From contig NZ_QWJJ01000004.1 of assembly GCF_003575965.1 (NCBI RefSeq), forward strand, positions 124,001-188,000: DNA of 64,000 nucleotides. The letters are read 5' to 3'. This DNA comes from Pseudooceanicola sediminis. GTDB lineage: Bacteria > Pseudomonadota > Alphaproteobacteria > Rhodobacterales > Rhodobacteraceae. Below the pieces are notes generated by a model. The model was not told the DNA's origin and ran no database searches. It saw only the letters and a program-made list of their open reading frames with translations. Both the position numbers and the translations under genes were made by a program. Of this stretch, positions 1,257-21,288 are shown one piece after another (the first letter of the stretch is position 1; each line of letters starts with the position of its first letter).

Positions 1257-1333
1257 TGGCGCGGTTGACGGGGCTCGAACCCGCGACCCCCGGCGTGACA
1301 GGCCGGTACTCTAACCAACTGAGCTACAACCGC
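1257..1333 (-). tRNA. tRNA-Asp (GTC), copy 1
   Basis: Read on the minus strand, a 77-nt cloverleaf has acceptor GCGGTTG pairing with CAACCGC, discriminator G and an encoded CCA. The D arm begins GCTCAGTTGGTTAGAG. The anticodon stem CCGGC/GCCGG encloses the loop CTGTCAC, so the anticodon is GTC. The T loop is TTCGAGC. It is identical to the copy at 1506-1582, 249 bp away. Confidence 0.97.
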
Positions 1334-1505: not shown

Positions 1506-1582
1506 TGGCGCGGTTGACGGGGCTCGAACCCGCGACCCCCGGCGTGACAGGCCGGTACTCTAACCAACTGAGCTACAACCGC
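1506..1582 (-). tRNA. tRNA-Asp (GTC), copy 2
   Basis: Identical over all 77 nt to the tRNA at 1257-1333, including the encoded CCA, the GTC anticodon and the TTCGAGC T loop. The flanks diverge immediately outside the gene. It has its own promoter and terminator, so the two copies are separate transcription units. Confidence 0.97.
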
Positions 1583-1717: not shown

Positions 1718-2326
1718 TCAGACCAGCGGCGCAATGGTCATGGCATCAACACAGACCAGCCCATGCGCGGCGGCAAAGGCCCGCGCCTCGGTGTCGCTCG
1801 GCGTGGCGCCCTCGGCCCCGATCATCGAACATAGCGCCGCAACCGGGGGCAGCCCTGCGGCCCTCAGCAAGGCCAGCGCGCAGTCGGCCTGCCCCCTCGT
1901 GTCGCCTTCGCTGATCTGGGGAAAGATATGTCCCGGCGTAACAATCATGTCGCCGGTTTCACACTCGGTCGCCGCCCGGATCGTGCGTGCCCGGTCCGCC
2001 GAGGATATGCCCGTCTCGACGCCTTCGCGCGCCTCGATCGACACGGTATAAAGCGGCCGCTCTGCCGCGCCGCGCCGGGGCTGCAACGACAGCCCGAGCA
2101 TCGCCGCCTTGCGTGGTGTCAGCGCCATGCCCAACAGGCCGCGCGCCTCGCGGGCCATGAAGTTCACGCTGCGCGGCGTGATCGCGCCGGCGGCCATCAT
2201 CACCACCGGCCCGGCCCGTGTGCCCGCCAGCACGACCATGCGCCCCTCCACCAACGCATCACAGGCCGCGGACATCTCGTCAGTCAGCGCAATTTTGTGA
2301 TGAAATTCCATGTATTGCAGCACCAT
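1718..2326 (-). CDS. RibB-like protein (DHBP synthase fold) lacking catalytic residues
   Basis: This 202-residue protein aligns along its length with 3,4-dihydroxy-2-butanone 4-phosphate synthase. It keeps the TVSIEAREGVETGISSADR block (residues 94-112), PGHIFP (131-136) and the final AAAHGL. The residues that bind metal and act in RibB are missing. The acidic loop after the GR start (DDEDRENEGD in E. coli) is replaced by VVLAGTRAGPVVMMAA. The TRGGHTEA motif is TRGQADCA, without the histidine, and the conserved glutamate in CELTNDDG is a serine (CSMIGAEG). It is the last gene of an operon with the amidase and rutF, 3 bp after rutF. DHBP synthase activity is therefore unlikely; a changed reaction or a binding role in flavin or heterocycle catabolism is inferred. 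The ATG at 2326 has a GAGGG sequence upstream; an internal ATG at 2311 is an alternative. Confidence 0.75.
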   Translation of the reverse strand: MVLQYMEFHHKIALTDEMSAACDALVEGRMVVLAGTRAGPVVMMAAGAITPRSVNFMAREARGLLGMALTPRKAAMLGLSLQPRRGAAERPLYTVSIEAREGVETGISSADRARTIRAATECETGDMIVTPGHIFPQISEGDTRGQADCALALLRAAGLPPVAALCSMIGAEGATPSDTEARAFAAAHGLVCVDAMTIAPLV

Positions 2327-2329
2327 GCG

Positions 2330-2821
2330 TCAGGCCCTCAGCTCATGAAAACGCCGCCCGAAATAGGCCGAGGCCGGGGCGCCCGCGTCCTGCACGATGC
2401 CCACCACTTCGCAAAACAGCACCTCATGCGTGCCGACCGCATGGCTATGGGTGATCAGGCAATCAAAGCTGACGACCGCCTGTTCCAGCACCGGTGCGCC
2501 GGTCACCGCCCGCCCCCAGGCCGCCGTCTCGAACCGCGCCTGCATCGGGGTCTTGCCACCGAACAGCATGGCCAGATCCTGATGCACCGGCCCCACCGTG
2601 TTCACGCACAGAACGTCATTTTCCAGAAACGCTGGGGCCGCCGACGAACTGCGGTTCAGGCACACCAGCAGCGTCGGCGGCGTATCGGTAACAGAACACA
2701 CGGCCGACGCCGTGAACCCCGACCGCCCTGCGTCTCCGTCGGTGGTGACGATATTGACCGCCCCGGCGAGGCAGGCCATTCCGTCGCGAAAGGCCGTCTG
2801 GCTGACGTGGCTGTGGCGCAT
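2330..2821 (-). CDS. rutF: RutF-type FMN reductase (NADH)
   Basis: The 163-residue protein closely resembles E. coli RutF. It has FRDGMACLAGAVNIVTTDG near the start, the GFTASAVCSVTDTPPTLLV flavin-binding segment (residues 35-53), NDVLCVNT, LFGGKTPMQARF and VSFDC. RutF supplies reduced FMN to the monooxygenase RutA. Here it is encoded between an amidase and the RibB-like gene, while the RutA-type genes lie 10 kb away in the same island. The start at 2821 is chosen because it aligns with RutF and has AGGGA upstream; an in-frame upstream codon at 2893 would add a tail with no family match. A second, more distant flavin reductase is encoded at 15752-16237. Confidence 0.88.
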   Translation of the reverse strand: MRHSHVSQTAFRDGMACLAGAVNIVTTDGDAGRSGFTASAVCSVTDTPPTLLVCLNRSSSAAPAFLENDVLCVNTVGPVHQDLAMLFGGKTPMQARFETAAWGRAVTGAPVLEQAVVSFDCLITHSHAVGTHEVLFCEVVGIVQDAGAPASAYFGRRFHELRA

Positions 2822-2914
2822 GTCATTTTCCCTGTTTGCGTCGCTATTCCAAAGACTAGGCGGGCCGTCCGATCCCGGCGACTGACGTTTCATGGCGGCA
2901 ATGCTGAAAATTCC

Positions 2915-4219
2915 TCACCCCTCCAGGATGGCCTGCGTCGCCAGCCCCGCAATGGCCAGCGCGGTCCGGTCGGCGTAACGACGGGTAACGAACGACAGGC
3001 CCAGGGGCATCCCGTTCGGCCCTGTCAGGCCAGGCGCCGAGACGACCGGCACCTGCAACAGCGTCCACATCGAATTCATCGTCGCATCCCCGGTATAGTC
3101 CAGCCCCACCGGCGCCTCGCCACAGGCCGAGGGCGTCATGACCGCGTCAAAGCCCTGCGCGATCTCGTCAAAGGCGGCGCGGCAGGTGTCGGCATGGGCA
3201 TAGGCCCAGCGGGCCTGGTCCGGCGTGATCTGGCGGGCGTTGCCCACCATGTCCAGAAACTGCGGATGCAGATCCGGGCACCGGCGGACCTCGTTCAGAA
3301 AGGCGCTGCGCCCCTCGCGCGCCAGGATGATCGAATGCGCGGCGTGCAGGTCATTGAAAATCGACGGCAATTCCAGCTCGACCACCTGCGCGCCCTGCCC
3401 GCGCAGAAACGTCGCGCCGCGCCCCAGGGCGTCGCGCATGGCAGGCTCGGTCGCGTCCCAGACCGGCGTGCGGCACAGGGCGATACGCAGCCCCTCGAGG
3501 CTGTCAGGTGTCGGCGCCGCATCCAGGTCAAAGACATCTGCCAGCAACTCCAGATCGCCAATGTCCCGGGCATACAGGCCCAGCGTGTCGCAGGTCAGCG
3601 AATAGACCTTCAGCCCCTCGCGCGAGATCACGTTCCACGTCGGCTTCCATCCGAAAATGCCGTTGAACGAGGCCGGCCGTATGGTCGACCCGCCGGTCTG
3701 CGTACCAAGGGCAACCGCGCACATTCCCGCCGCCACGGCCGCCGCCGACCCCGAGGAGGACCCCCCCGGCGTGCGTGTCGGGTCATGCGGATTGCGCGTC
3801 TTGCCGCCCCGCTGACCAGCGGCGAATTCGGTGGTCACCGTCTTGCCCACGATCAGCGCCCCGGCGGCACGCAGGGTGTCGACACAGGCGGCATCGACGC
3901 CGGGGCGCACGCCTTCGTATCGCCGTGTGTTATGGGCCGTCGGCATGTCGTGCGTCGCGATCACGTCCTTGACGCCAACCGTTACGCCGGCCAGCGGTCC
4001 GCGACTCCCGGCACTGTCGATCGCCGCCGCCTGCGCGCGCAACAGACCGGCGTCAAAATAGTCAAAGGCCTGCACATCCGGCTCGCGGTGCTCAATGGCG
4101 GCGATGGTCGCCTCGGCGATGTCGGCGGCGCTGTGGCGCCCCTCGGCCACGGCGCGGACGATGGCGCCCGCAGTCATGGACAAGGGGTTCGGGCTGTCAA
4201 ACTGGTGTTCGGAGTTCAT
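2915..4219 (-). CDS. Amidase signature family hydrolase
   Basis: The 434-residue protein belongs to the amidase signature family (GatA/AmiE/allophanate hydrolase fold), which hydrolyses amide or carbamoyl C-N bonds. The Ser-cisSer-Lys triad is visible: Lys84 in GVTVGVKDV, the serines of [15 protein letters not shown] (154-158) and nucleophile Ser178 in [14 protein letters not shown]. It is the first gene of a minus-strand operon with rutF and the RibB-like gene, divergent from the ABC transporter operon. A LysR-type box lies 82 bp upstream of its start. The ATG at 4219 has GAGG upstream; an extension to 4261 is less likely. The substrate cannot be read from sequence; an amide or ureide product of ring opening is inferred from the context. 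Confidence 0.85.
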
Positions 4220-4300
4220 CGGGGGCCTCTGCGGTACGGGTCGCTGCCACCTAAACAGCATCTGCGTTTCGCTGCACCGCAGCTTTCCTCAGCCTCTGCG

Positions 4301-4313
4301 TGAGTTTTCTTCA
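4301..4313. promoter_or_regulatory. Putative LysR box between amidase and ABC transporter operons
   Basis: TGAGTTTTCTTCA is a T-N11-A dyad. Its reverse complement TGAAGAAAACTCA matches the island consensus TGAGAAAATCTCA at 10 of 13 positions. It sits 82 bp before the amidase start and 182 bp before the binding-protein start, in the 275-bp divergent region. Confidence 0.45.
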
Positions 4314-4494
4314 ATTGCCCGATCGCGCCTGCCTCCGCGACACTTTTGACAGGGGCGCCCAGACGCCACCCAATCCGCACGACCAACAGAAGCGATAGCG
4401 CATCAAGGACCCGGACCCCCACGAAATGCCGCTCAGGCACATGGGCAGGTCGCAAAAATGGGCCGTGCGCCACTCACGTCCGCAGGAGGGATGT

Positions 4495-5814
4495 ATGACA
4501 CCCAAGACACCGAAAGACGCCAGCACCACCGCCCCCGGCACCACGCCGGCACCGACCGGCCTGTCGCGCCGTGCCTTGCTGAAAACCGGTGCGGCCGCCG
4601 GTGCCGCCAGCCTGTTCCCCGCGCCGATGCTCTGGGCGCAGAACATCAAGGACGTCAAGATCGTCCACGCCGGGCAAAGCTATTCGACCATCCCCAATAT
4701 CGCGGAACAGGCGAACAAGGACCTCGGCTTCACGGTCGAGATGCAGACGCTGGACCAGACCACCCAGACCAACCGCATGTTGACCCAGCCGGACACGCTG
4801 GACGTGGTCGACGTGCCCAACACCTCGATGAAATACTTTCTGGGCCGTGACATCCTGATGCCGCTGGCAGTCAAGGATTACAAATGGTGGGACAAGACCG
4901 TGCCGCTGTTCACGCAAGGCACCTATCCCAACGGCGAAGCCTATTCGATGCAGGGCTATGCGCCGATCAAGGCGCAATACTATACCTCTGAAAAGGCCAA
5001 GGAATACTCGCTCACCCCGACCGAATGGCTGGTCGGCGTGCCGCTTTACTATAACGCCGACACCATCGGCATCCGCCCCGATCTGATCGACCGCCCGATC
5101 GAAAGCTGGGCCGATCTGCTCAGTTCCGATTTCAACGGCAAGGTCGCCTTGCAGGATGGTGTGGCAGTCGGTGTCCCCGACGCCGCCATGGCGCTGGAGG
5201 CCATGGGCGATGTCACCTACGTCGACAAGGGGAACATGACCAAGGAGGAGATCGACGCCACCATCGACAAGCTGATCGCCTACAAGAAGGACGGCCATTT
5301 CCGCAGTTTCTGGACCACGTTCGAGCAATCCGTGCAGCTGATGGCCTCGGGCGAGGTCGTGCTTGAATCGATGTGGGCCCCTGCCGTCACCGAGGTCCGC
5401 ACCCGCGGGATCGAATGCAAGTACAACGGCATGAAGGAAGGCTATCGCGGCTGGTACATCATGATGATGGGCATGAGCCACCTCGACGGCCTGCAACGCG
5501 ACTGCGCCATCGAATACATGAACTGGTACAACTCCGGCTGGGTTGGCGCCTTCATCTCGCGCCAGGGCTTCTACAACTCGGTGCCCGAAAACGTGCAGCC
5601 GATGATGACCGAGAACGAATACGGCTACTGGTACGAGGGCAAGGCGGCAACCGACGACATCCTCAACCCCTTCGGCAAGGTGATGGAAACGGCAGGCGCC
5701 GTGCGCGATGGCGGCGCCCTGTGGGACCGGATGGGCAATATCGGCATCTGGAACTCGCTGATGGACGAAGACCGCTACCTTGTGCGGCGTTGGCAGGATT
5801 TCATCGCAGCGTGA
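4495..5814 (+). CDS. ABC transporter substrate-binding protein, PotD/polyamine type, Tat-exported
   Basis: The 439-residue protein starts with a twin-arginine signal, LSRRALLKTGAAAGAAS (residues 23-39), with likely cleavage near MLWAQ. The mature part has the group 1 extracellular solute-binding fold of spermidine/putrescine-type systems: VDVPNTSMKYFLGRDIL, the PLYYNADTIGIRPDLIDRPI segment and a YMNWYNSGWVGA segment near the C-terminus. Two permeases and an ATPase of the same type follow. The start at 4495 has AGGAGGG immediately upstream; the frame is open from 4426. Polyamine-type transporters carry many small cationic or nitrogenous compounds. Because the operon is divergent from rutF and the amidase, the ligand may be the heterocycle degraded by this island; that is inference. 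Confidence 0.88.
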   Translation: MTPKTPKDASTTAPGTTPAPTGLSRRALLKTGAAAGAASLFPAPMLWAQNIKDVKIVHAGQSYSTIPNIAEQANKDLGFTVEMQTLDQTTQTNRMLTQPDTLDVVDVPNTSMKYFLGRDILMPLAVKDYKWWDKTVPLFTQGTYPNGEAYSMQGYAPIKAQYYTSEKAKEYSLTPTEWLVGVPLYYNADTIGIRPDLIDRPIESWADLLSSDFNGKVALQDGVAVGVPDAAMALEAMGDVTYVDKGNMTKEEIDATIDKLIAYKKDGHFRSFWTTFEQSVQLMASGEVVLESMWAPAVTEVRTRGIECKYNGMKEGYRGWYIMMMGMSHLDGLQRDCAIEYMNWYNSGWVGAFISRQGFYNSVPENVQPMMTENEYGYWYEGKAATDDILNPFGKVMETAGAVRDGGALWDRMGNIGIWNSLMDEDRYLVRRWQDFIAA

Positions 5815-5879
5815 TCCCGCACCCCGGCTGCGGCGCAGGGCGTGCCGCGGCCACCCCGGCCCTTACACAGAGGCTATTC

Positions 5880-6740
5880 ATGAAGCTCAATCCCAAAGCC
5901 GTATCGCTGCTTCAGGTCGCGCCGATGGGGATCATCTTTACCGCCATGGTGCTGGTGCCCCTGCTGATCATCATCGTCGTCAGCTTTCTGGACTACGATT
6001 TTGCCCGCGTCTTTCCCGAGATATATCTCGGGTCGTGGCAGGACGTGCTGACCTCGCAACTGACCCTCGATCTGTATGAAACGACGTTCAAGTTCGTCGC
6101 CATCGTCTGGGTGATCACCTTTTCCCTGGGCTTCTCCATTGCCTATTTCCTGGTCTTCCATGTCCGCACCCTGCAAATCCGTCTGATGCTGCTGGCGGCC
6201 ATCGCCATCCCGTTCTGGACCTCCGGACCGATCCGCGCGGTTGCCTGGGTGCCGCTGCTGGGGCGCGAGGGTCTGGTCAACCAGGCGCTGCTCGGCCTGG
6301 GCATCGTCGATCAGCCCGTTGCCTGGCTGATGTATTCCGAATTCGCCATCCTGGTCGCCTATATCCACCTGCTGACCATGCCGATGGTGATCACCATCTC
6401 GAACTCGATGATGAAGATCCCCGGCTCGATCATCCAGGCTGCGCAGGACGCCGGGGCCTCGGAATTCCAGATCATCCGAGAGATCATCCTGCCGCTGGCC
6501 CGCCCGGGCATTGCCATCGGCACGATCTTTGTCGTGACGGCGGTGATGGGCGATTTCTTCATCGTCAAGACCATGTCCGGCGGTCAGGTCAACACCGCCA
6601 CCATGGCCATCGTGACCGAACTGAACGCCTTTCAGTACCCCCCCGCCGCCGCGAAATCCGTGCTGATGCTGGCCATCGTGCTGGGCCTCGTGGCGCTGTT
6701 GCTGCGCTTTGCCGACATTCGCAAAGAACTGACGAAATAA
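5880..6740 (+). CDS. ABC transporter permease, PotB type
   Basis: This 286-residue integral membrane protein has about six hydrophobic segments. The permease EAA-type loop is seen around IPGSIIQAAQDAGASEFQIIREIILPLARPGIAIG (roughly residues 178-213). It resembles PotB-type subunits of spermidine/putrescine importers and pairs with the permease 13 bp downstream. The ATG at 5880 (MKLNPKAVSLL) is preceded by AGAGG. A longer open frame from 5373 runs through the binding-protein gene and is a shadow there. Confidence 0.9.
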   Translation: MKLNPKAVSLLQVAPMGIIFTAMVLVPLLIIIVVSFLDYDFARVFPEIYLGSWQDVLTSQLTLDLYETTFKFVAIVWVITFSLGFSIAYFLVFHVRTLQIRLMLLAAIAIPFWTSGPIRAVAWVPLLGREGLVNQALLGLGIVDQPVAWLMYSEFAILVAYIHLLTMPMVITISNSMMKIPGSIIQAAQDAGASEFQIIREIILPLARPGIAIGTIFVVTAVMGDFFIVKTMSGGQVNTATMAIVTELNAFQYPPAAAKSVLMLAIVLGLVALLLRFADIRKELTK

Positions 6741-6753
6741 GGAAGGGTCCGCC

Positions 6754-7596
6754 ATGGCTACGCGCAAACGCAAACGCCCGGCAAGCTTCTATGTCCTCGC
6801 CACGCTTCTGGGCGCCTACGCCGTTTTCCTCTATGCGCCGATGGCCTGTGTCTACGTGCTGTCGTTCCAGGGGCCGCAGGGCGGCATGTCCTTCCCAATG
6901 GTCGGCTGGTCGACGCACTGGTTCCAGGTGCTGTTCCAGGGCACCGGCGGGCAAGGCGTGGGCGACATTCCGTCGGCCTTCCGCCGTTCGATCCGGCTGG
7001 CTCTGATCGTCGGGGTGCTGACGATGATCATCTCCGTCTCGGCGGGCATGGCCTATCGGCGCAAGTTTCCGGGGGCAAACTTCGTCTTCTATTCTGCCAT
7101 TGCCTCGATGGTGCTGCCGGGTATCTTCGTCGGGTTCGGCATCGCACTGACGTTCAACCTGCTGGGATGGCGGGTGAACTGGTTCTCCTCGGGTATCGGC
7201 GCCCAGCTGACCTGGACCCTGCCGTTTGGCATGCTGATCATGTTCATCGTTCTGGGCCGCTTCAACCCGGCGTATGAGGAAGCCGCGACCGACCTCGGCG
7301 CCAATGCCCGTCAGCGGTTCTGGATGGTCATCGTGCCGATCATCCTGCCCGGTATCATCGCCATCACCATGGCCTCGCTGACCTCCTCCTACGAGGAAAC
7401 CGCCCGCACGCAGCTGAATGTCGGCACCGGCAACACCATGCCGATGGAAATCACCGGCCTGCTGACCGCCGCGACCTCACCGGTGATCTTTGCCGTGGGC
7501 ACCGTCACCACTTTCGTCTCCTTCTCGCTGGTCATCGCGTCACTGCTCATCATGACGCGGCTGGCCAAGCGCCGCTCTTCGAGGACCGCACAATGA
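6754..7596 (+). CDS. ABC transporter permease, PotC type
   Basis: The 280-residue protein has an N-terminal membrane segment after a KRKRP start, several further hydrophobic segments, and the loop YEEAATDLGANARQRFWMVIVPIILPGIIA near residue 169. It is the second permease of the polyamine-type importer and overlaps the ATPase gene by 4 bp (ATGA). The segment SSYEETARTQLNVGTGNTMPMEI is the usual periplasmic/cytoplasmic transition of PotC-like proteins. Confidence 0.9.
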   Translation: MATRKRKRPASFYVLATLLGAYAVFLYAPMACVYVLSFQGPQGGMSFPMVGWSTHWFQVLFQGTGGQGVGDIPSAFRRSIRLALIVGVLTMIISVSAGMAYRRKFPGANFVFYSAIASMVLPGIFVGFGIALTFNLLGWRVNWFSSGIGAQLTWTLPFGMLIMFIVLGRFNPAYEEAATDLGANARQRFWMVIVPIILPGIIAITMASLTSSYEETARTQLNVGTGNTMPMEITGLLTAATSPVIFAVGTVTTFVSFSLVIASLLIMTRLAKRRSSRTAQ

Positions 7597-8666
7597 ACCT
7601 GAGCCAGCTCAAACCCAAAGCCGCCCTGCCAGAGCCTGAAAAGACGCACCTCAAGCAGGCCACGCAAGGCCACCGTTTCGACGCAGAGCTGGTCGCGGTC
7701 ACCAAGAGCTACGGTCCCGGCGCACCGGCCGTCGACGACATATCGTTGCGCATCCCCCGGGGCAGCTATTGCTGCCTGCTCGGCCCCTCGGGTTGCGGAA
7801 AATCGACCACGCTGCGCATGCTGGCCGGACATGAAGACGTGACCGAGGGCGCGATCCTGATCCATGACGAGGAAGTGACCCACAAACTGCCGGTCGACCG
7901 CGGCACCTCGATGATGTTTCAGGACTACGCCCTGTTTCCGCATCTCTCCTCGCTCGACAACGTCGCCTTTTCGCTCAAGGTGCGCGGCGTCGCCACGACC
8001 GAGCGGCGCAAGCAGGCCCGCGCCTACCTCGAACTGGTTCAGATGGATCACCTGGCCGACCGCCTGCCCAATCAGCTGTCAGGGGGTCAGCAACAGCGCG
8101 TTGCACTGGCGCGATCCCTGATCACCCGCCCAAAGGTTCTGCTGCTGGATGAACCGCTCTCGGCGCTTGATCCCTTCCTGCGGATCAAGATGCGTTCGGA
8201 GCTGAAAAGGATTCAGAAAGAATTGGGTATATCCTTCATCCATGTCACCCACTCCCAGGACGAGGCATTGGCCCTGTCGGACATGATCGTCGTGATGAAT
8301 GACGCGAAAATCATGCAGGCCGCCCCGGTCCGCGAGGTGTTCGAGACGCCGACCAACGCCTTCGTGGCGCGGTTTCTTGGTGGCCAGAACGTTCTGACCA
8401 GCGATACGCACCAGGTTTCCGTGCGTACCGACCGCTGCCGCCTGGGCCGTTCGCCAGGCATGCGCAGTCTGGAAGGACAGATCGCAATGATTGAATATCA
8501 AGGCAACCTTGTGCGCATCACCCTTCAAACCACGCTGGGCGATGAGATGACGGTGCTGCAAAGCGATACCGAGTATTTCGCCCAAAACCCGCAAATCGGG
8601 GACACTGCTGTGATGAGCTGGCACCCCTCGGACGAACATGTCCTGGACCCGATGCAGGCAGGCTGA
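7593..8666 (+). CDS. ABC transporter ATP-binding protein, PotA type
   Basis: The 357-residue ATPase has Walker A GPSGCGKST (residues 64-72), a Q-loop in MFQDYALFPHLS, signature LSGGQQQRVALARSL, Walker B VLLLDEPLSALD and the switch histidine in VTHSQDEALALSD. A C-terminal TOBE-like region (about residues 265-350) is present. It energises the two-permease importer. Translation is coupled to the preceding permease by an ATGA overlap. A strong hairpin 21 bp downstream ends the operon. Confidence 0.92.
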   Translation: MNLSQLKPKAALPEPEKTHLKQATQGHRFDAELVAVTKSYGPGAPAVDDISLRIPRGSYCCLLGPSGCGKSTTLRMLAGHEDVTEGAILIHDEEVTHKLPVDRGTSMMFQDYALFPHLSSLDNVAFSLKVRGVATTERRKQARAYLELVQMDHLADRLPNQLSGGQQQRVALARSLITRPKVLLLDEPLSALDPFLRIKMRSELKRIQKELGISFIHVTHSQDEALALSDMIVVMNDAKIMQAAPVREVFETPTNAFVARFLGGQNVLTSDTHQVSVRTDRCRLGRSPGMRSLEGQIAMIEYQGNLVRITLQTTLGDEMTVLQSDTEYFAQNPQIGDTAVMSWHPSDEHVLDPMQAG

Positions 8667-8687
8667 CAGCGACCCGATGCACGCAAG

Positions 8688-8714
8688 AAAGGCCGCCCTC
8701 ACCGGGCGGCCTTT
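8688..8714. terminator. Bidirectional hairpin terminator between ABC operon and LysR gene
   Basis: Stem AAAGGCCGCCC / GGGCGGCCTTT with a 5-nt loop, lying between the convergent ends of the ATPase gene (8666) and the LysR gene (8744). The AAA/TTT ends support termination in both directions, though the T-run is short. Confidence 0.75.
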
Positions 8715-8743
8715 CGCATTTCGCTCGCTTTCGAACCGGCGGG

Positions 8744-9667
8744 TCAGGCGGCGTGCACCAGCGCGTTCTGACGCACCTTGCCCAGGATCCAGTCCTTGAA
8801 TCGCTGCATTGTTTCGCGGCTGTCAGGCTTCCACGGCGACAACAGGTAATAGGCGCTGCGGATCGGATAGATGTCCGCCACCTTGATCAGATCCCCGCGC
8901 GCAATCGCCTGGCTCGTCAGCAGCGACCGGCCCAGCAGAACCCCGGCGCCGGCCCGCGCCGCGTCGATCCCGGTCGAGGCCTGGTTGAAGCGCGGCCCAT
9001 GCGAAACATCGCCCCGCGACACCCCGTATTCCGCAAGGTAGCGCGTCCAATCGGGATAGGTCCCTTCAAGCCCGTCCTGCAACCGGTCAACATGCACAAG
9101 CGGCGCATGTGCCAGTATCTCCTTGGCATCATTACCGAAACGCGCCGCAAGATCGGGCGAGCAGACAGGCACGATATCTTCTTCCAACAGCGGTTCGACC
9201 TGGCAGTCCAGCGTCGTCTGCCAGTTCAGGATGCGAAAATCGCTCTCCTGCTCCTCGGCTTCCCGGCGGGAAATGAAGGTGCGCACGTTCAGGTCGACCT
9301 CCGGCTCGATTTCCATGAATTCGCCCAACCGTGGCATCAGCCACAGCGACGCAACCGAGGTCGAAGCGGACACCGTCAGCCGGCGGCGCACGTCCTCTTC
9401 CAACTGGGTCAGCGACATCACTGCATCGTTGATCAGGTCCAGCGCCTGCGTAATCCGTGCGACATTGGCGCGCGCGTCCTGGGTCAGTTCGATGCGACTG
9501 TTCTTGCGCAGAAACAACTGCACCTGAAGGAACTCCTCCAGCATCCGGATCTGATGACTGACCGCCGTCGGCGTGACGCAAAGTTCATCCGCCGCCTTGA
9601 CGACCGAGCCGTGCCGCGCCGTCGCTTCAAAGGCGCGAATAGCATTCAAGGGCGCTCTTTTTCGCAT
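8744..9667 (-). CDS. LysR-family regulator, GcvA-like; candidate regulator of the island
   Basis: The 307-residue protein has the LysR helix-turn-helix at residues 6-64 (LNAIRAFEATARHGSVVKAADELCVTPTAVSHQIRMLEE) and a type 2 periplasmic-binding effector domain from about residue 90. The PLNAIRAFE... start and LVHVDRLQDG... pattern fit the GcvA-like group. It lies inside the RutA island, downstream of the nitrilase-like gene on the same strand but separated by 204 bp, so it probably has its own promoter. Conserved T-N11-A boxes at 4301, 11554-11614, 13115, 14562 and 16323 make this the best candidate for the pathway regulator; no box was found directly upstream of its own start. Confidence 0.88.
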   Translation of the reverse strand: MRKRAPLNAIRAFEATARHGSVVKAADELCVTPTAVSHQIRMLEEFLQVQLFLRKNSRIELTQDARANVARITQALDLINDAVMSLTQLEEDVRRRLTVSASTSVASLWLMPRLGEFMEIEPEVDLNVRTFISRREAEEQESDFRILNWQTTLDCQVEPLLEEDIVPVCSPDLAARFGNDAKEILAHAPLVHVDRLQDGLEGTYPDWTRYLAEYGVSRGDVSHGPRFNQASTGIDAARAGAGVLLGRSLLTSQAIARGDLIKVADIYPIRSAYYLLSPWKPDSRETMQRFKDWILGKVRQNALVHAA

Positions 9668-9871
9668 GTCATCCCCGCTGTTGCAGAAAGCCCGAAAACG
9701 GGCGGTTCCTCACCCTGCAATCAGCAGACCACAGCGCCCTTCGACGCGGCAAGCGGCATGGATTTGACGTGACCCGCACAAAGGGAAAACGGTGTTTTAT
9801 TGAGCGTCGCGCCCCGAATTGCCTAAATACACATGGTCCTGCGCATTCTTCGGCTCTCCTGCGGCGCCAGA

Positions 9872-10771
9872 TCAGGCGGCATCGCTATGGCGGGCGCGAT
9901 ATACATCCGGGCGCAGGTTTGCGGCAAAATTCCAACGTGCGCGCAACGCCTGCTGTTCAGGCATCGACAGCTCGGCCACCACCACTTCGTCGTCCATGCT
10001 CTGTGCCGTGGCCATCACCTCGCCCTCGGGGCTACAGATGAAACTGTCCCCGATGTAGGTCACGCCGTTTTCCACCCCGGCCTTGCCCGCCGCGATGGCA
10101 TAGGTCGCGTTGGCGAACGCTCCGCCGCAAATTGCCAGGCGGGATGCCGCGCGGGCCTTTTCCAGCGTGCCGCCATTCATCACCGGCGTATTGTAGGACA
10201 CCGCGAAAAGCTCGGCGTCCGCCTGCATCAACGCCCGATAGCTTTCCGGAAACCGCCGATCATAGCAGATCATGCCGCCCACCCGCGCCGGGCCCAGATC
10301 ATAGACGGGAAACCCCAGGTCGCCGTCCAGAAAATAGCGCTTTTCCAGGATCGTGATGTCCTTGGCCGGATCCGGTGTGGTCTGCCCCGGAATGTGCACC
10401 TTGCGGAACCTGCCCCGCACCTCTCCTGCCGCATCGATAAAGGCCATTGCATTGTACAGCCCGGCCTCGGCGGCCTCCGCATGCGGCAGAACCACCGCGA
10501 TGGCATGTTCCTGCGCGGCCTTGCCGATGCGGCTGATTGCCTCGGCATTCTGCGATACGGATGCAAACGGCTCGACCGAAGGGCGAATTTCGGCTGCGAA
10601 ATAAGGTGTCAGCGCCAGTTCGGGCAAAACCGCGATGCGCGCCTTTTGTGCGGCGGCCCGTGCCAGCAGATCGATGATCCTGTCGACCGTTTCGGCAATG
10701 GTGGCCGAGGCCGGACCAAGCTGAAGCGCGGCGGCGACAAAGCGGTCAACTCGACGTTCTGATGGCATCAT
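9872..10771 (-). CDS. Carbon-nitrogen hydrolase (nitrilase superfamily), carbamoylase/amidase type
   Basis: The 299-residue protein has the nitrilase-superfamily triad: Glu51 in LPELALTPYF, Lys124 in FRKVHIPG and Cys169 in GGMICYDRRFPES. These enzymes hydrolyse non-peptide C-N bonds such as N-carbamoyl amino acids, beta-ureidopropionate or aliphatic amides. The CYDRRFPE motif is that of N-carbamoyl-amino-acid and beta-ureidopropionase-like members. It lies 12 bp after the isochorismatase-like gene and is co-transcribed with it. GAGGAGG precedes the ATG at 10771. A role in hydrolysing a ureido or amide intermediate is inferred. Confidence 0.88.
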   Translation of the reverse strand: MMPSERRVDRFVAAALQLGPASATIAETVDRIIDLLARAAAQKARIAVLPELALTPYFAAEIRPSVEPFASVSQNAEAISRIGKAAQEHAIAVVLPHAEAAEAGLYNAMAFIDAAGEVRGRFRKVHIPGQTTPDPAKDITILEKRYFLDGDLGFPVYDLGPARVGGMICYDRRFPESYRALMQADAELFAVSYNTPVMNGGTLEKARAASRLAICGGAFANATYAIAAGKAGVENGVTYIGDSFICSPEGEVMATAQSMDDEVVVAELSMPEQQALRARWNFAANLRPDVYRARHSDAA

Positions 10772-10783
10772 CAGCGTGCCTCC

Positions 10784-11470
10784 TCAGGCGGTTTTCTGCA
10801 CGGCGGCCGGGCCGGCGATCAGGGCCATCGCCGCCGCCTCGTCGATCACGTCGCAGATCTTGAACTGCATGTCGAACAAGGCGGCAGCGTGGCTCATCTC
10901 GATGCGGTCAAAGACTGCCTCCTCGACCACCATCATCTTGTACCCCATCGCCTCACCCTCGACGCAGGTGGCGCGCACGCACCCCGATGTCGAATTGCCG
11001 ACCGTCAGCAATCCGTCGACGCCCAACTCCTGAAGGATCATGTGCAGATTGGTGAAGGTAAAGCAGCTAGGTGTCTGCTTCTCCAAAAGGATATCGCCGG
11101 CCTGCATCGCGACCTCGGCCTGTATTTCGGAACGCGGGTCACTGGCGGCGAACACACCCGACGCCGATTTTGCCAGGCCGGTGTAGGGGTGAAAGACATG
11201 CTTGGAATAGATCACCGGCATACCCACCCGCCGCGCGGCCTCCAGCAGGCGCTGTTGCACGGGAATGGCGCGCCAGGCGTGGGGTCCGCATGCGCCGGGA
11301 AACCTGTCCAGCTGCTCGACGATCGGGCGATCCTCTCCGATCGCGGTGACCTGCATGTCGATCACCAGCAGCGCGTTCACCCGCCCCGGACCATGCGGCA
11401 CACGCAGGGATCTGCTGCGCGTCAGTGCGCGGTCGTCCTCGGTCAGAAAGCTCTCCCAAACTCGGTTCAT
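10784..11470 (-). CDS. Isochorismatase-like cysteine hydrolase, N-carbamoylsarcosine amidase type
   Basis: The 228-residue protein shows the cysteine hydrolase triad of the isochorismatase-like family: Asp38 in ALLVIDMQ, Lys131 in EKQTPSCF and Cys164 in NSTSGCVRATCVEG. The TSGCVRAT motif and the later VVEEAVFDR-ISHA-LFD pattern point to the N-carbamoylsarcosine amidase/maleamate amidohydrolase (NicF) group rather than to RutB. In the Rut pathway an enzyme of this superfamily opens the ureidoacrylate product of RutA, so a similar position in this pathway is plausible. The ATG at 11470 has AAAGG upstream; the frame is open to 11572. It is divergent from the MFS gene across 212 bp that hold three LysR-type boxes. 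Confidence 0.85.
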   Translation of the reverse strand: MNRVWESFLTEDDRALTRSRSLRVPHGPGRVNALLVIDMQVTAIGEDRPIVEQLDRFPGACGPHAWRAIPVQQRLLEAARRVGMPVIYSKHVFHPYTGLAKSASGVFAASDPRSEIQAEVAMQAGDILLEKQTPSCFTFTNLHMILQELGVDGLLTVGNSTSGCVRATCVEGEAMGYKMMVVEEAVFDRIEMSHAAALFDMQFKICDVIDEAAAMALIAGPAAVQKTA

Positions 11471-11553
11471 GCTGCACCTTTGCCTGTCCCTGTCAGCCAA
11501 GAGGCTATGACGCACGGCGGCGCAGGCCGAATGCGGAAATCTCTGGCGGATGC

Positions 11554-11614
11554 TGAGAAAACCTTGGCCCACCCGTGCTGAGAAAAGTTAAGCGCGGCCT
11601 TTAGGTTTTCTCTT
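11554..11614. promoter_or_regulatory. Three putative LysR boxes between hydrolase and MFS genes
   Basis: TGAGAAAACCTTG (11554-11566) and TGAGAAAAGTTAA (11579-11591) are direct repeats 25 bp apart, each preceded by GC. A third copy is inverted at 11602-11614 (reverse complement AAGAGAAAACCTA). All share GAGAAAA with the palindrome TGAGAAAATCTCA at 13115. The first lies 83 bp from the hydrolase start and the last 68 bp from the MFS start, typical LysR distances. Confidence 0.55.
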
Positions 11615-11682
11615 TTGACGATCTGAGCGCGCCCGGACCATTCACTCTGCAGGCGCCCGCCCGGCGCGTGTGGAGGTGTCGC

Positions 11683-13224
11683 TTGTACATACTGTCTCAA
11701 CGTCGCCAGATCGCCATCGCCTTTGTGGTTGCCTGCGCCTTTCTGATGCAGGGCATCGATTCAACGCTTTTGACGATCGCCATCCCGACCATCGCCGACG
11801 ACCTCGGGCGCGCACCGCTGTCGCTGCACGTGCTGATCACGGCCTATCTGCTCAGCCTCGCGGTGTTCATGCCGGTGTCGGGCTGGTTTGCCGATCGTTT
11901 CGGGGCGCGGCGGGTGTTTTGCGGTGCAATCGGTGTTTTCATGGCCGCGTCCGTGCTCTGCGCCCTGATGCCGGAGCTGTGGATGATGGTGCCCTTTCGC
12001 CTTATCCAGGGGTTCGGCGGCGCGTTGATGACCCCCGTGGGGCGCATGATCGTGCTGCGCGCCTTCGGGCGCGGGCGCACACTGGATGCCATGACATGGC
12101 TGACGATCCCCGTACTGATCGGACCGCTGATCGGACCGTTGATCGGCGCGGCGCTGGTGGAAATGGCGCATTGGCGGCTGCTGTTCCTGGTCAACCTGCC
12201 GATCTGCGCAGCAGCCATCGCCGGGGCATTGCGCCTGATCGAACCTGAGGCGCCGGTCGGCGCGCAGCGCTTCGACCTCGGCGGGTTCGCCCTGGCCGGT
12301 CTGTCCCTGGCCATGTTCCAACTCGGGATCGAGGCCTTGGGCCATCCGCGTTACGGGCCACTCGGGGCGGTCTGCCTTGCGAGCGCAGGTGTGGCGATAT
12401 TCGCCGTCTACCGTCGTCACTCGCGTCGCCTGACGGCCCCCGCACTGGATTTGTCGCTGTTTTCGCAACGCGCCTTTGCCACCGGCGTCATCGCCGGCGG
12501 GATCGGGCGTATCGGTTTGAATTCGATGGCGTTTCTTACTCCGCTGATCCTGCAACTGGGGCTGGGGTTCCGCCCGATCACCGCCGGTCTGTTATCGGCC
12601 ATGGCGGCGCTCGGCTCCTTTGCATCGAAACCCTTGCTCAGGGGAATGCTGGCGCGTCACGGCTTTCGCGCCGTCATGATCGCTCTGACGCTGACCGGCT
12701 CGGCCTCCGTCGCCCTGTTTGCCCTGATCGGCCCGGACTGGCCGCTCTTTCCGCTGCTGGCCCTTTGCGTCGTGTCCGGCACCATCCGCACGTTGTACTT
12801 CAACGCGGCCAACACGTTGACCTACACCGCCCTGTCCGAACATCAACTGTCGAGCGCCGTGTCCTCTGCCGGGGTATTCCAGCAACTGGCCATGGGCCTT
12901 GGCATCTCGCTTTCCGCTGCGCTGCTGTCACTGTTGCAGGGGGCGTCGCCACAGATGACACTCTCTGATTTTCACGCGGCTTTCGCGCTGATGGCCCTGA
13001 TCCCCCTCCTGTCCCTTCCCGTTTTATGGCGGCTGGGCAGGTGCGACAGCCAGCCGAGCCTGTCCCGCGACCAAGCCGCGCAAGCCGGCCCCGACCACCC
13101 CGCCAGGCCGGGGCTGAGAAAATCTCAAGCTGCCCGGCGAAATAAGTCGATTGGCGCGCCGCCCGGTCTGACCAAAGCTGAAGACAACGCAGCGCACCGC
13201 CCCACGGTGGCCGAGAGACTTTGA
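11683..13224 (+). CDS. MFS transporter, DHA2 (multidrug-type) family
   Basis: This 513-residue membrane protein has the DHA2 pattern: a first helix with QGIDSTLLTIAIPTIADDL, the loop motif GWFADRFGARRVF after helix 2, RLIQGFGGALMTPVGR (motif B-like) and IGPLIGPLIGAALVE (motif C-like). It would export or import small organic compounds across the inner membrane. I chose TTG at 11683 because GGAGG ends 6 bp upstream; GTG at 11668 is also open. The last 60 or so residues, after WRLGRC, are hydrophilic and Pro/Ala/Arg rich, unlike the family, and overlap a LysR-type box. The original stop may have been lost. It is 11 bp upstream of the first RutA-type gene. Confidence 0.85.
   Translation: MYILSQRRQIAIAFVVACAFLMQGIDSTLLTIAIPTIADDLGRAPLSLHVLITAYLLSLAVFMPVSGWFADRFGARRVFCGAIGVFMAASVLCALMPELWMMVPFRLIQGFGGALMTPVGRMIVLRAFGRGRTLDAMTWLTIPVLIGPLIGPLIGAALVEMAHWRLLFLVNLPICAAAIAGALRLIEPEAPVGAQRFDLGGFALAGLSLAMFQLGIEALGHPRYGPLGAVCLASAGVAIFAVYRRHSRRLTAPALDLSLFSQRAFATGVIAGGIGRIGLNSMAFLTPLILQLGLGFRPITAGLLSAMAALGSFASKPLLRGMLARHGFRAVMIALTLTGSASVALFALIGPDWPLFPLLALCVVSGTIRTLYFNAANTLTYTALSEHQLSSAVSSAGVFQQLAMGLGISLSAALLSLLQGASPQMTLSDFHAAFALMALIPLLSLPVLWRLGRCDSQPSLSRDQAAQAGPDHPARPGLRKSQAARRNKSIGAPPGLTKAEDNAAHRPTVAERL
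13115..13127. promoter_or_regulatory. Perfect LysR-type dyad upstream of the first RutA-type gene
   Basis: TGAGA-AAA-TCTCA is a perfect 5+3+5 inverted repeat with the T-N11-A form. It lies 108 bp before the start at 13236 and inside the unusual 3' tail of the MFS reading frame. It is the best copy of the motif repeated across the island. Confidence 0.6.
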
Positions 13225-13235
13225 AAGGAAGCGAC

Positions 13236-14339
13236 ATGACCCAGATTGGCGTCTTCATCCCGATTGGCAGCCGCGGTTGGCTGATCTCCACCACCTCTCC
13301 CAAGACCATGCCCAGCTTTGATCTGAACAAGATCGTGGTGCAGCGCGCCGAGCATTTCGGGCTGGATTTCGCTTTATCCATGATCAAGCTGCGCGGCTAC
13401 AACGGGCCGTCGGAATACTGGGTCCACAACCTGGAGAGCTTTACGCTCATGGCCGGCCTGGCCGCTGTGACAACCCGGATCAAGCTGTTCGCGTCCTGCG
13501 CGATGCTGACCCTGCCACCTGCCCTGACCGCGCGGATGGCCACGACGATCGATTCCATAGCGCCGGGTCGGTTCGGGGTGAACATGGTGACCGGATGGCA
13601 GCCCAAGGAATATCAGCAGATGGGGATCGAACTGACGCCAGAACACTTCGCCCGCCGGTATGACTATGCCTCGGAATACGTGCAGGTCATGCAGGAGCTG
13701 TGGAGCGAGGGCGTGTCGAACTTCAAGGGCGATTTCTTTCAGATGGACGATTGCAGACTGTCGCCCCAACCCACGGGGAACCGCATCCCGATCGTCGGTG
13801 CCGGCCAGTCCGAGAAGGGCATGGAGTTCGTTGCCCGCTACGGGGATTACAACTTTGTCGGTGCCGGCGGCAACATCAACGAAACCAGCAAGAGCCGCGA
13901 GATGGTGGCCAAGGTCAACGCAGCAGCCGACAAACACGGGCGTGACACCGGCGCCTTCCTGTTGCTGATGGTCATCGCGGATCGCACGGAGGAAGCCGCC
14001 TGGGCCAAGTGGAACCTGTACAAGGAAGGTACAGACATCGAAGCGCTGGAATGGCAGGCCAGCCAGGCAGGCATGGACAAGGTCTCGAAGGAGGGATCGA
14101 CGGCCGTTGCACTTACCCGCGCCATTTCCAATCCGCAGCCGACAGGGATGCTGAAACTGATCGGTTCCTATGAGCAGGTTGCCGCAATGCTCGATGAAAT
14201 TGCATCCACCAAGGGGTTGAAAGGGCTGATGTTGACGTTTGATGACTTTGTCATCGGAATTGAGCAATTCGGCCAATACATTCAACCATTGATGAAAACA
14301 AGAAACGCAACCTCTGGCGCAAACGCGGCAGCCGCATAG
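13236..14339 (+). CDS. RutA-like flavin-dependent monooxygenase (luciferase-like), paralogue 1
   Basis: The 367-residue protein is a luciferase-like monooxygenase closely related to RutA, which uses FMNH2 and oxygen to open the pyrimidine ring. Shared segments include the N-terminal [57 protein letters not shown] and the C-terminal LTFDDFVIGIEQFGQ-IQPLM. It departs from RutA at regions that surround the substrate: the WPGDDYF segment is ELTPEHF and the [13 protein letters not shown] helix is NINETSKSREMVA. It therefore probably acts on a different ring or intermediate from the paralogue at 14608. The ATG at 13236 has AAAGGAAG upstream. The reduced flavin could come from RutF or from the reductase at 15752. 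Confidence 0.85.
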   Translation: MTQIGVFIPIGSRGWLISTTSPKTMPSFDLNKIVVQRAEHFGLDFALSMIKLRGYNGPSEYWVHNLESFTLMAGLAAVTTRIKLFASCAMLTLPPALTARMATTIDSIAPGRFGVNMVTGWQPKEYQQMGIELTPEHFARRYDYASEYVQVMQELWSEGVSNFKGDFFQMDDCRLSPQPTGNRIPIVGAGQSEKGMEFVARYGDYNFVGAGGNINETSKSREMVAKVNAAADKHGRDTGAFLLLMVIADRTEEAAWAKWNLYKEGTDIEALEWQASQAGMDKVSKEGSTAVALTRAISNPQPTGMLKLIGSYEQVAAMLDEIASTKGLKGLMLTFDDFVIGIEQFGQYIQPLMKTRNATSGANAAAA

Positions 14340-14561
14340 CCGCGTTTATTCGGGAAGGATATGGCACGACACCCGAAATGCCATATGCGTTTGCCATAGA
14401 GCGACGTTATTTATTACAGAGGCTTACGCAAAGCGTCACCGTCCAGTTCCACATCCAAAAAAGACGTCGAAACGGCCTGCGCGCATAATAGGCAGCAAAG
14501 ATTTTTCCGCCCACGCGTCAAGGTGAAACGCGGCTTTGTAGATGAACGCCCCCCACAAAGC

Positions 14562-14574
14562 TGCGAAAATCTTG
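14562..14574. promoter_or_regulatory. Putative LysR box upstream of rutA
   Basis: GCTGCGAAAATCTTGAAG (14560-14577) matches the GCTGAGAAAATCTCAAGC context of the 13115 palindrome; the 13-base core TGCGAAAATCTTG agrees at 10 of 13 positions. A weaker inverted match lies near 14496-14508. It is only 33 bp before the rutA start, closer than the other sites. Confidence 0.4.
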
Positions 14575-14607
14575 AAGTCAATATCTGAACAACGAGGGAG
14601 ATTCGAC

Positions 14608-15690
14608 ATGGACATGGGTGTTTTCATTCCTATTGGCAATAACGGCTGGCTGATTTCAAAATCCTCGCCACAATACATGCCATCTTTTGATTTGAATCGC
14701 GAAATCGTTCAAAAGGCCGAAGGCTATGGGTTGGATTTCGCGCTCTCAATGGTGAAATTGCGTGGGTTTGGCGGCGAGACCGAATTCTGGGATCACAACC
14801 TGGAAAGCTTTACCCTGATGTCGGCCCTTGCCGCCGTCACCAGCAAGATCAAGCTCTTCGCCTCGACCGCGATCCTGACGCTGCCGCCAGCCATCGTTGC
14901 GCGGATGGCCTCGACCATCGACAGCGTCGCGCCGGGCCGTTTCGGGATCAACATCGTGACCGGCTGGGCACCGAACGAATACACCCAGATGGGCGTCTGG
15001 CCGGGCGATGAATATTTCGGATATCGCTATGAATACGCCAGCGAATATGTGCAGGTGATGAAAGACCTGTGGTCCGATGGCACCTCGGATTTCAAGGGCA
15101 AGCATTTCACGATGGACGATTGCAAGCTCTCCCCGAAACCCTCCAGCCCGATCGAAATCGTCGCAGCCGGTCAATCCGACACAGGTATGGCATTTTCCTC
15201 GAACTACGCCGATTATTCCTTTGTGCTCGGCTCCGGCATCAATACGCCCACTGCCTTCGCCCCGACTGCGGCCCGCCTCAGCGATGCCGCAAGGACCTCG
15301 GGCCGTGACGTCGGCGCCTATGTCCTGTTCATGATCATCGCGGGCGAAACCGACGAAGCGGCCCGTGCCAAGTGGGACAGTTATCGTGAAGGTGCCGACA
15401 TGGAGGCCTTGTCCTACATGGGGGTCCAGGGCGCCGCCGACAGCACGGCAGGCGAAAACTCCACCGCCAAGGCGATCAACCTTCCCGAAGGCGCCGTGAA
15501 TTTCAACATGGGCACGATTGTCGGGTCATATCAGACCGTCGCGAGAATGCTGGACGAAGCCGCCGCCGTGCCGGGCGTCAAGGGCATCATGATGACCTTT
15601 GATGATTTCGTCGAAGGCATCGATGCCTTCGGTCAGCACATTCAGCCGCTGATGGCCTGCCGCAAGGATATCGGCATCGCGGCGGAATAA
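14608..15690 (+). CDS. rutA: RutA-type pyrimidine monooxygenase, paralogue 2
   Basis: The 360-residue protein follows E. coli RutA closely along its whole length: [15 protein letters not shown], the QYMPSFDLN segment, [55 protein letters not shown] and [13 protein letters not shown] are all present. RutA cleaves the uracil ring at N3-C4 with FMNH2 and oxygen. The start at 14608 has GAGGGAG seven bases upstream and matches RutA; the in-frame ATG at 14542 lies in an AT-richer leader. It is separated from the first paralogue by 268 bp and so probably has its own promoter. The true substrate here is open, because rutB, rutC, rutD, rutE and rutG are absent from the window. Confidence 0.9.
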
Positions 15691-15751
15691 GGCCCCGCGC
15701 CCTCGAATGAGATCGGCCTCGCCATACCGGCGGGGCCCATGCGCGCCCGGA

Positions 15752-16237
15752 TCACTCCGACAGGAACTTGCCGCGAAAGAAAATCAACGGCGCACCCTGC
15801 CCGGTGGCCCGCAGCGCGCGGACGCGACCAATGACAATCGAGATATCGCCGTGTTCGACGATCTGCTCGACCTCGCAGTCGAACACCCCCAGGGCCGTCG
15901 CATAACACGGTGCGCCCGTCTCCAGCGTATCCCACGCGCCGGGCGCGAATACCTTCTCGCCTTTGCCGCCAAAGGCATTCGCCAGCGCGGCCGTTCCTTC
16001 GGGCAGGAAATTCACGGCGAAATGGCCGCTCTCGCGCACCGCACCCAGGGCACTTGTCTTGCGATCGATCGACACCAGCATCGTCGGCGGGCTTGCGCAG
16101 ACATGGGCGGCCGACAATCCCAGAAATCCCGTAGGCCCGTCTGCCCCCTGCGCCGTGACCAGCGTGGCGCCGATGGCCCGCTCTCCCAAGGTACGCCAGA
16201 ACGCGCCCATATCGATATTCTCGCCCATAGCCTGCAT
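15752..16237 (-). CDS. Flavin reductase-like domain protein (FMN-binding)
   Basis: The 161-residue protein has the flavin reductase-like split-barrel fold: WRTLGERAIGATLVTAQGADGPTGF near the start, then LSAAHVCASPPTMLVSIDRKT and HFAVNFLP. It differs from RutF in sequence and would be the partner reductase for one of the two monooxygenases. It is convergent with rutA at its 3' end. The ATG at 16237 has AAGGGA upstream; an extension to 16261 is possible. A LysR-type box lies 86 bp upstream of the start, as for the other units of the island. Confidence 0.85.
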   Translation of the reverse strand: MQAMGENIDMGAFWRTLGERAIGATLVTAQGADGPTGFLGLSAAHVCASPPTMLVSIDRKTSALGAVRESGHFAVNFLPEGTAALANAFGGKGEKVFAPGAWDTLETGAPCYATALGVFDCEVEQIVEHGDISIVIGRVRALRATGQGAPLIFFRGKFLSE

Positions 16238-16322
16238 TGTGTCATTCCCTTGTCCGCACATGCCTGGCCACAGCTTGCCAACCTGTCAGCCCCCAACAAG
16301 CAGAAGTTTCTGAACGACGTGC

Positions 16323-17350: not shown

Positions 17351-17410
17351 CACGCAACTCCTCTGTCGACCCAAGATGTCGGGAACAGAATGCCTCCGCC
17401 GCACCTGAAA

Positions 17411-17450
17411 AAGAATTGCAAGAATACCAACAACAGCTATCATAATTCTT
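17411..17450. promoter_or_regulatory. Inverted repeat in the epimerase/LysR divergent promoter
   Basis: AAGAATT at 17411-17417 and AATTCTT at 17444-17450 form an inverted repeat in the 100-bp AT-richer space between the two divergent genes; another AAGAAT-like half occurs at about 17419. It differs from the TGAGAAAATCTCA motif of the neighbouring island, which argues that this LysR protein has a separate target. Confidence 0.35.
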
Positions 17451-19693: not shown

Positions 19694-19708
19694 GCTGCCC
19701 TAACCCTG

Positions 19709-21285: not shown

Positions 21286-21288
21286 GAG

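Follow-up and report, generated by a model that had tools for sequence, protein, structure and literature searches.

A RutA-centred gene cluster of Alphaproteobacteria, distinct from the uracil rut operon, as a candidate catabolic system for a pyrimidine-like cyclic ureide or imide

The window analyzed here (64,000 nucleotides, positions 124001–188000 of contig C35 in the 4.44-Mb draft genome of Pseudooceanicola sediminis) carries between positions 1718 and 16261 a cluster of genes grouped around two RutA-family monooxygenases, which we term RutA1 and RutA2. RutA is the hallmark enzyme for oxygenating an amide by way of flavin N5, a reaction described for the breakdown of uracil and thymine (PMC7662398). 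Clusters such as this one are usually annotated as uracil breakdown, and public plasmid records label the cluster gene rutA "pyrimidine utilization protein A". Our analysis supports a cluster distinct from the rut operon, and a plain uracil rut operon was rejected, because the RutAs of the cluster fall into separate clades, its gene content differs and it co-exists with separate rut operons in some genomes. The cluster is rare but conserved and most likely acts on some other small nitrogen-containing ring; the balance of the evidence tips, if only moderately, towards a conserved alphaproteobacterial catabolic cluster for a pyrimidine-like cyclic ureide or imide. The finding that a conserved clade of RutA paralogs sits in a cluster of its own implies a second natural use of the RutA flavin-N5 chemistry, and with it a hitherto unrecognized nitrogen source for Alphaproteobacteria of grapevine, soil and sea.

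Phylogeny and oxygen-pocket residues of RutA1 and RutA2

RutA1 (positions 13221..14339, plus strand, with the probable start at ATG 13236) and RutA2 (14542..15690, plus strand) both exceed the cut-off of the TIGR03612 family (504.1 and 636 bits, respectively, versus 498.3), in agreement with the first-pass annotation of this sequence, which had recognized two RutA-type monooxygenases at the locus, and no other protein of the genome matches this family. Four orthologues of RutA1 score under the same cut-off (477–493 bits). Among named organisms, Pseudooceanicola spongiae has the relative nearest to RutA1 (92% identity); RutA2 exhibits 63% identity to RutA of E. coli. When 58 RutA-family proteins were placed in a tree, the canonical set, i.e. 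E. coli RutA and those of seven alphaproteobacterial loci, formed a clade of 8 rows (support 100/100), in which rutB adjoins 7 of the 8 genes and rutC and rutD adjoin the one at locus L044. RutA1 belongs to a clade of 33 rows apart from the 8 canonical RutAs (100/100), and RutA2 to a clade of 9 rows (95/90), which is placed outside the canonical clade, but as its neighbor. L041 and L046 (a repeat of L017) were left out of both trees that we calculated, and L013 (the same as L021), L040 and L018 also out of the second one.

In RutA of E. coli the O2 pocket is made up of L65, T105, N134, V136 and F224, plus W139 (PMC7662398, PMC10005588), and the published motif permits Ser at the position of T105 (PMC8234197). 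RutA1 and RutA2 retain all six residues, with T105 as Ser, and so do the other sequences examined (50 of the 58 tree rows), with the sole exception of V136, replaced by Ile in 3 canonical rows. At other positions the RutA1 clade differs consistently from the canonical RutAs: N31R and P142K are found in all 33 members, N317P and N319G in 32, Y42T and T322K in 31, and F226G in 28. Since the O2-pocket residues are kept while other positions differ throughout the clade, the residue pattern of RutA1, as far as can be judged from the alignment, fits the same flavin chemistry acting on another substrate.

Recurrence of the gene set and its relation to rut genes

A scan of 84,980 species genomes with an alignment of two RutA1 sequences revealed 23 loci, of which 21, at 67–92% identity, come from Alphaproteobacteria or from metagenome-assembled genomes (MAGs) labelled Proteobacteria. 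Together with the window and two plasmid loci, these 21 make up a tally of 24 loci from several families (L040 and L041, at 42–43% identity, were not counted, and L021 is represented by L013/L014 on the same contig). The substrate-binding protein of the importer is present at 18 loci, each of its permeases and its ATPase at 19; the amidase at 19, the isochorismatase-like hydrolase at 21 and the nitrilase at 18; the LysR regulator at 18, a flavin reductase at 14, a DHA2-type transporter of the major facilitator superfamily (MFS) at 11 and another MFS protein at 11; a type II asparaginase-family protein at 8, the RibB-like protein at 5, PuuE-like deacetylase-family proteins at 4 and AtzD at one. 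The thresholds are of our own choosing and admit weak matches (27–43% identity for the isochorismatase in four loci, 31–33% for the nitrilase in two); contig ends cut four of the loci (L026, L027, L038 and L039), and the 24 are not independent, as they include two from Alloyangia, two from Devosia, those of Allorhizobium ampelinum and A. vitis, and two near-identical MAGs. At several comparison loci the genes were called with a crude GC-position script, hence their starts and some small open reading frames (ORFs) are unreliable. Within these bounds the neighborhood comparison that the first-pass annotation had called for bears out its expectation that the genes are conserved together: other genera carry this set again with its gene order little changed, which is more than would be expected by chance.

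The cluster is nonetheless seldom encountered. RutA1 matches at E<=1e-100 are limited to 2 of 149 genomes of the family, including that of P. sediminis, and at E<=1e-138 to P. sediminis alone among 398 genomes drawn from the phylum; a draw of 385 genomes from the class yielded at this threshold two further matches, at 59% identity, both outside the RutA1 clade. A RutA above the family cut-off was found in 5 of 190 genomes of the class, again including P. sediminis. The second genome of the family, Aquimixticola, possesses the complete set in unchanged order, along with some additional genes, and has two RutAs (the figure of 3 in our tally arose because one gene is split between L013 and L014). 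A pattern search for RutA1 in viral contigs gave no match.

The number of RutAs per cluster ranges from 1 to 4, with an extra amidase beside some. The smallest version, on plasmid pAtS4e of Allorhizobium ampelinum S4, comprises one rutA, the reductase, amidase, isochorismatase, nitrilase, MFS protein, LysR regulator and importer, and this small single-RutA version offers a tractable test set. At the other extreme, Devosia indica (L030, 10001-14563) carries four tandem genes of the RutA1 clade, which belong to different subclades. In the two near-identical MAG loci RutA1 is directly followed by the isochorismatase, and a BMP-type importer and a deaminase-family protein are present, as judged from weak family matches. 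Families of ring- and ureide-hydrolases were identified near some loci, namely AtzD (433 bits versus a cut-off of 360), an M20 carbamoylase (419 versus 204), PuuE-like proteins (at best 377 versus 424.6), Hydantoinase_A and an Asp/Glu/hydantoin racemase. In one Rhizobiales locus (L024, 2307-9431) an AtzD-family cyanuric acid hydrolase, a BMP-type ATP-binding cassette (ABC) importer and an amidase lie directly upstream of RutA1.

As the first-pass annotation had stated, RutB, RutC, RutD, RutE and RutG are absent from the window: among E. coli RutB-G used as queries at E<=1e-8, RutF alone found a match. That annotation had also named RutB-G encoded elsewhere on the chromosome, combined with a cluster that serves only uracil, as a finding that would speak against its reading, and the first half of this was observed in part. 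Contig C4 of the same genome (L011, 7019-10617) encodes an operon of RutB, RutC, a permease, RutD and an ATPase, with an ABC importer and no RutA beside it; the proteins are 69% (RutB, 375.2 bits versus a cut-off of 377.95), 56% (RutC) and 37.5% (RutD) identical to their E. coli counterparts. The best RutG match in the genome scores 102.4 bits (the cut-off of 758.65 is passed by none of 14 control genomes, E. coli included). The operon lies near genes that by eye resemble xanthine dehydrogenase subunits. As C4 provides RutB, RutC and RutD without a RutA, RutA2 could supply the first step of uracil breakdown in this genome, and thus might also serve uracil here.

RutB and RutA were searched for in 17 of the 21 RutA1-bearing genomes, whose completeness is not known (those of L027, L037, L038 and L039 were left out, and L026 lies at a contig end). 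Nine of the 17 exhibit no RutB at E<=1e-40, while four (two Alloyangia, a Rhodobacteraceae MAG and a Rhizobium) possess the cluster plus a separate canonical rutA-rutB-rutC-rutD. In one Rhizobiales genome RutB, RutC and RutD lie at a contig end, the two RutB-like proteins of Acuticoccus stay under the cut-off, and Acidisphaera has a canonical RutA beside RutB and no cluster. At E<=1e-70 RutB was detected in only one of the 149 family genomes, that of P. sediminis, therefore Aquimixticola has the cluster without RutB.

Gene inventory, predicted pathway and competing explanations

Pfam and NCBIfam scans located every gene that had been assigned to the cluster in the first-pass annotation, which besides the monooxygenases had listed RutF, a second flavin reductase, a RibB-like protein, three C-N hydrolases, a polyamine-type importer, a transporter of the MFS and a regulator of the LysR family. 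The minus-strand block 1718-4261 encodes the RibB-like protein of the DHBP_synthase family (1718..2326), the RutF-like flavin reductase (2330..2893, start codon uncertain) and a hydrolase with the amidase signature PF01425 (2915..4261, start perhaps at 4219). The importer, of the PotABCD type, occupies the plus strand at 4426-8666, with a periplasmic substrate-binding protein of the SBP_bac_8 family (4426..5814, start perhaps at 4495), classified as PotD-type by its neighbors and one weak match, a PotB-like permease (5880..6740, in an ORF that opens at 5373, the start being taken from the translation), a PotC-like permease (6754..7596) and a PotA-like ATPase (7593..8666). The minus-strand segment 8744-11572 encodes a GcvA-like LysR-family regulator (8744..9667), a nitrilase-superfamily hydrolase, PF00795 (9872..10771), and an isochorismatase-family cysteine hydrolase, PF00857 (10784..11572, probable start at about 11470). 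The segment 11668-15690 begins with an exporter-like MFS transporter of the DHA2/MdtD-EmrB type (11668..13224, plus strand) followed by RutA1 and RutA2, and the second flavin reductase, of the Flavin_Reduct family (15752..16261, minus strand), closes the cluster.

The catalytic motifs of these families are intact in the hydrolases of the window (Lys/cis-Ser/Ser in the amidase and Glu/Lys/Cys in the nitrilase, and likewise those of the isochorismatase); at the other loci loose motif patterns are matched by 18–21 of 21 amidases, 13–15 of 15 nitrilases and 11–13 of 13 isochorismatases. Among solved structures, the best match of the amidase is malonamidase E2 (195.5 bits; next kind 143.5), that of the nitrilase is N-carbamoyl-D-amino acid amidohydrolase (161.5 bits; next kind 97) and that of the isochorismatase is N-carbamoylsarcosine amidohydrolase (69 bits). 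The isochorismatase is also a distant relative of RutB (35 bits versus a cut-off of 377.95), and in Methylocapsa RutE and RutF are encoded near the RutA2-clade gene. The relationship to N-carbamoyl hydrolases and malonamidase, together with the Methylocapsa context, points to a ring that, like a pyrimidine, would yield a carbamoylated or amidated C3 acid upon opening.

The RutF-like protein exhibits 58% identity to E. coli RutF (235.4 bits versus the RutF cut-off of 254.75) and is the probable supplier of reduced flavin mononucleotide (FMNH2). The RibB-like gene adjoins it in 5 genomes. The RibB-like protein is not an equivalog of RibB, as it scores 92.6 bits against the TIGR00506 cut-off of 177.45; a true RibB (246.4 bits) is encoded on contig C43 of the same genome. 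The acidic DRENEGD loop, the His of GGHTE and the Glu of CE, the metal-binding and catalytic elements of RibB, are replaced in all 5 aligned orthologues, hence the protein is unlikely to be a 3,4-dihydroxy-2-butanone 4-phosphate synthase. In the two Alloyangia loci (L061, 9355-11736; L068, 2026-4401) a 790-aa protein, which by eye resembles an outer-membrane receptor, takes the place of the RutF-like and RibB-like genes.

The oxidative ring opening followed by C-N hydrolysis that the first-pass annotation had envisaged would fit these enzyme classes. We propose that the PotABCD-type transporter imports a pyrimidine-like cyclic ureide or imide, whose ring amide bond would be opened oxygenolytically by RutA1 (and RutA2) with FMNH2 from the two flavin reductases. 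The isochorismatase-like enzyme may then act in the place of RutB on the ureido or amide product, the nitrilase would carry out the N-carbamoyl hydrolase step, and the amidase would finally deamidate the intermediate to a C3 acid, for example a derivative of malonate or malonic semialdehyde, with release of ammonium. LysR would sense the compound, and the MFS protein might export the product or an analogue. While the gene content, its conservation, the separate phylogeny, the conserved O2-pocket residues and the hydrolase motifs were observed directly, the substrate, the order of steps, the products and the direction of MFS transport are what we infer from them.

Several observations weigh against this proposal. 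RutA2 groups with canonical RutA (18 rows together, 100/99), and the genome possesses RutB, RutC and RutD on C4 without a RutA, just as RutB of P. spongiae lies away from the only two RutAs of that species. Glu292, which has been modelled near the pocket (PMC10005588), is not conserved even among canonical RutAs. The structural match of the isochorismatase is distant, with a putative isochorismatase close behind (68 bits), and the top NCBIfam names, all far under their cut-offs, differ from the structural assignments (the amidase is ranked as an indoleacetamide hydrolase, the nitrilase as an N-carbamoylputrescine amidase and the isochorismatase as a biuret hydrolase). The match of the binding protein to one polyamine-binding structure is likewise distant (25 bits), so the attempt to derive a substrate class from this protein was dropped. 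Finally, Acidisphaera has RutA1 and no cluster, Acuticoccus and two MAGs have no PotABCD-type importer, and the neighboring ring- and ureide-hydrolases, which point to the same kind of substrate, are present at a small number of loci and may form part of adjoining operons.

Among the alternatives, a split rut pathway deserves to be taken seriously, even if we consider it unlikely: RutA2 and the RutF-like protein would feed RutB, RutC and RutD on C4, and the cluster would serve uracil or thymine at least partly. The identities of RutA2 and the RutF-like protein to their E. coli counterparts and the position of the RutA2 clade next to the canonical one agree with such an arrangement, as does the fact that the genome encodes no RutA other than the two of the cluster, with the same split in P. 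spongiae. Yet RutA1 and RutA2 both lie outside the canonical clade, RutA2-clade genes occur without any RutB at E<=1e-40 in Mesobacterium, Aquimixticola, P. nanhaiensis, Lichenifustis and Methylocapsa (the completeness of these genomes is not given), and the use of uracil needs neither the extra hydrolases, nor the importer, nor RutA1. Improbable, in our opinion, is a role in the degradation of larger or synthetic cyclic amides (hydantoins, cyclic imides, triazines, xenobiotics of the uracil or barbiturate type), with tandem RutAs for breadth and no fixed pathway. It could account for the up to four tandem paralogs in Devosia, for the genes of the AtzD, PuuE-like, carbamoylase and hydantoinase families in the vicinity of some loci, and for the patchy distribution and plasmid location; on the other hand, species of several families share the importer, amidase, isochorismatase, nitrilase and regulator as a single recurring set, in keeping with a natural substrate. 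A more speculative reading, to which we give little credence, is that the tandem RutAs act one after another on a single multi-imide heterocycle, each cleaving an amide bond by flavin-N5 oxygenolysis and thereby dismantling the ring iteratively, with a new flavin- or sugar-phosphate-linked role for the altered RibB-like protein.

A biosynthetic or detoxification cluster is very unlikely: the DHA2-type MFS protein is exporter-like and a RutA-like flavoenzyme is mentioned in a study of tropone biosynthesis (PMC8283759), but an importer plus three or four C-N hydrolases speaks against it, and no assembly-line genes were seen by eye in the gene lists, not all of which were scanned against family libraries. 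Least credible of all is riboflavin, lumichrome or another flavin as the substrate, which the first-pass annotation had listed among its candidates and for which the RibB-like protein and the two flavin reductases could be cited. Flavin reductases are expected with any RutA, the RibB-like protein lacks the RibB motifs and is found at only 5 of the 24 loci, and in our family scans, which involved no comparison with the riboflavin lyase RcaE, the cluster proteins include no match to P450, Rieske or xanthine-oxidase families, all of which the lumichrome route described in PMC12746152 employs, together with hydrolytic ring opening.

Genomic setting and comparison with known systems

The left edge of the cluster is abutted by an identical tandem pair of tRNA-Asp genes (1257..1333 and 1506..1582, minus strand), as it is in P. 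spongiae (L058), and no tRNA was found at the other loci scanned for tRNAs. A repeat of the tRNA as a candidate att site was rejected, the best partial match being 17 bases inside the tRNA (E 0.05), with no convincing partial copy in the window; family scans of proteins in 1-20600 revealed no integrase. The GC content of RutA2 is 57%, versus a window mean of 63.5%. The patchy distribution and the plasmid locations, alongside the tRNA-Asp edge and the low GC content of RutA2, suggest that the cluster may have spread horizontally. The plasmid records with RutA clusters come from Alphaproteobacteria of grapevine and soil; Pseudooceanicola is a marine genus.

Beyond the right edge, a divergent pair of an epimerase/short-chain dehydrogenase-type NAD-dependent protein (minus strand) and a LysR regulator (plus strand) at 16358-18362 separates the cluster from an ABC operon of the branched-chain amino acid (Liv) type (18509-23621, plus strand); the pair is absent from this place in P. 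spongiae. The Liv operon was considered as a part of the cluster and rejected, even though it directly follows RutA2 in P. spongiae; its binding protein is present in relatives from the genus without an adjoining cluster, and in 7 genomes of the genus the roughly 10 kb of sequence upstream of its homologue contain no cluster gene beyond weak matches to ABC-ATPase and MFS paralogues. Farther downstream lies a 1020-aa ORF (23639-26701, minus strand), whose beginning by eye resembles a periplasmic binding-protein sensor domain.

We found no description of this cluster in the open-access literature in PubMed Central, whose coverage leaves out most subscription papers. Among the closest known systems is rutABCDEFG of E. 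coli, with which the cluster shares a RutA-family monooxygenase with the O2-pocket residues, a RutF-like reductase and a cysteine hydrolase that, like RutB, is a member of the isochorismatase family. It differs in that its RutAs, one to four in number, form separate clades, RutB, RutC, RutD, RutE and RutG are missing from the version in the window, an ABC importer replaces RutG, and an amidase, a nitrilase, an MFS protein, a LysR regulator and, at 8 of the 24 loci, a type II asparaginase-family protein are added. The catabolism of riboflavin and lumichrome by the lum system resembles the predicted pathway in the use of C-N hydrolases on a uracil-type ring (PMC12746152); that route proceeds with a P450, hydrolytic ring opening, a thiamine pyrophosphate-dependent decarboxylase, xanthine oxidase, Rieske and extradiol dioxygenases, and family scans detected none of these enzymes among the cluster proteins. 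The breakdown of cyanuric acid and barbiturate by AtzD-family and ureide hydrolases likewise concerns cyclic ureide chemistry, and an AtzD homologue precedes the cluster in one Rhizobiales locus out of the 24; however, the ring opening in these systems is hydrolytic, and not flavin-dependent as predicted for RutA1 and RutA2.

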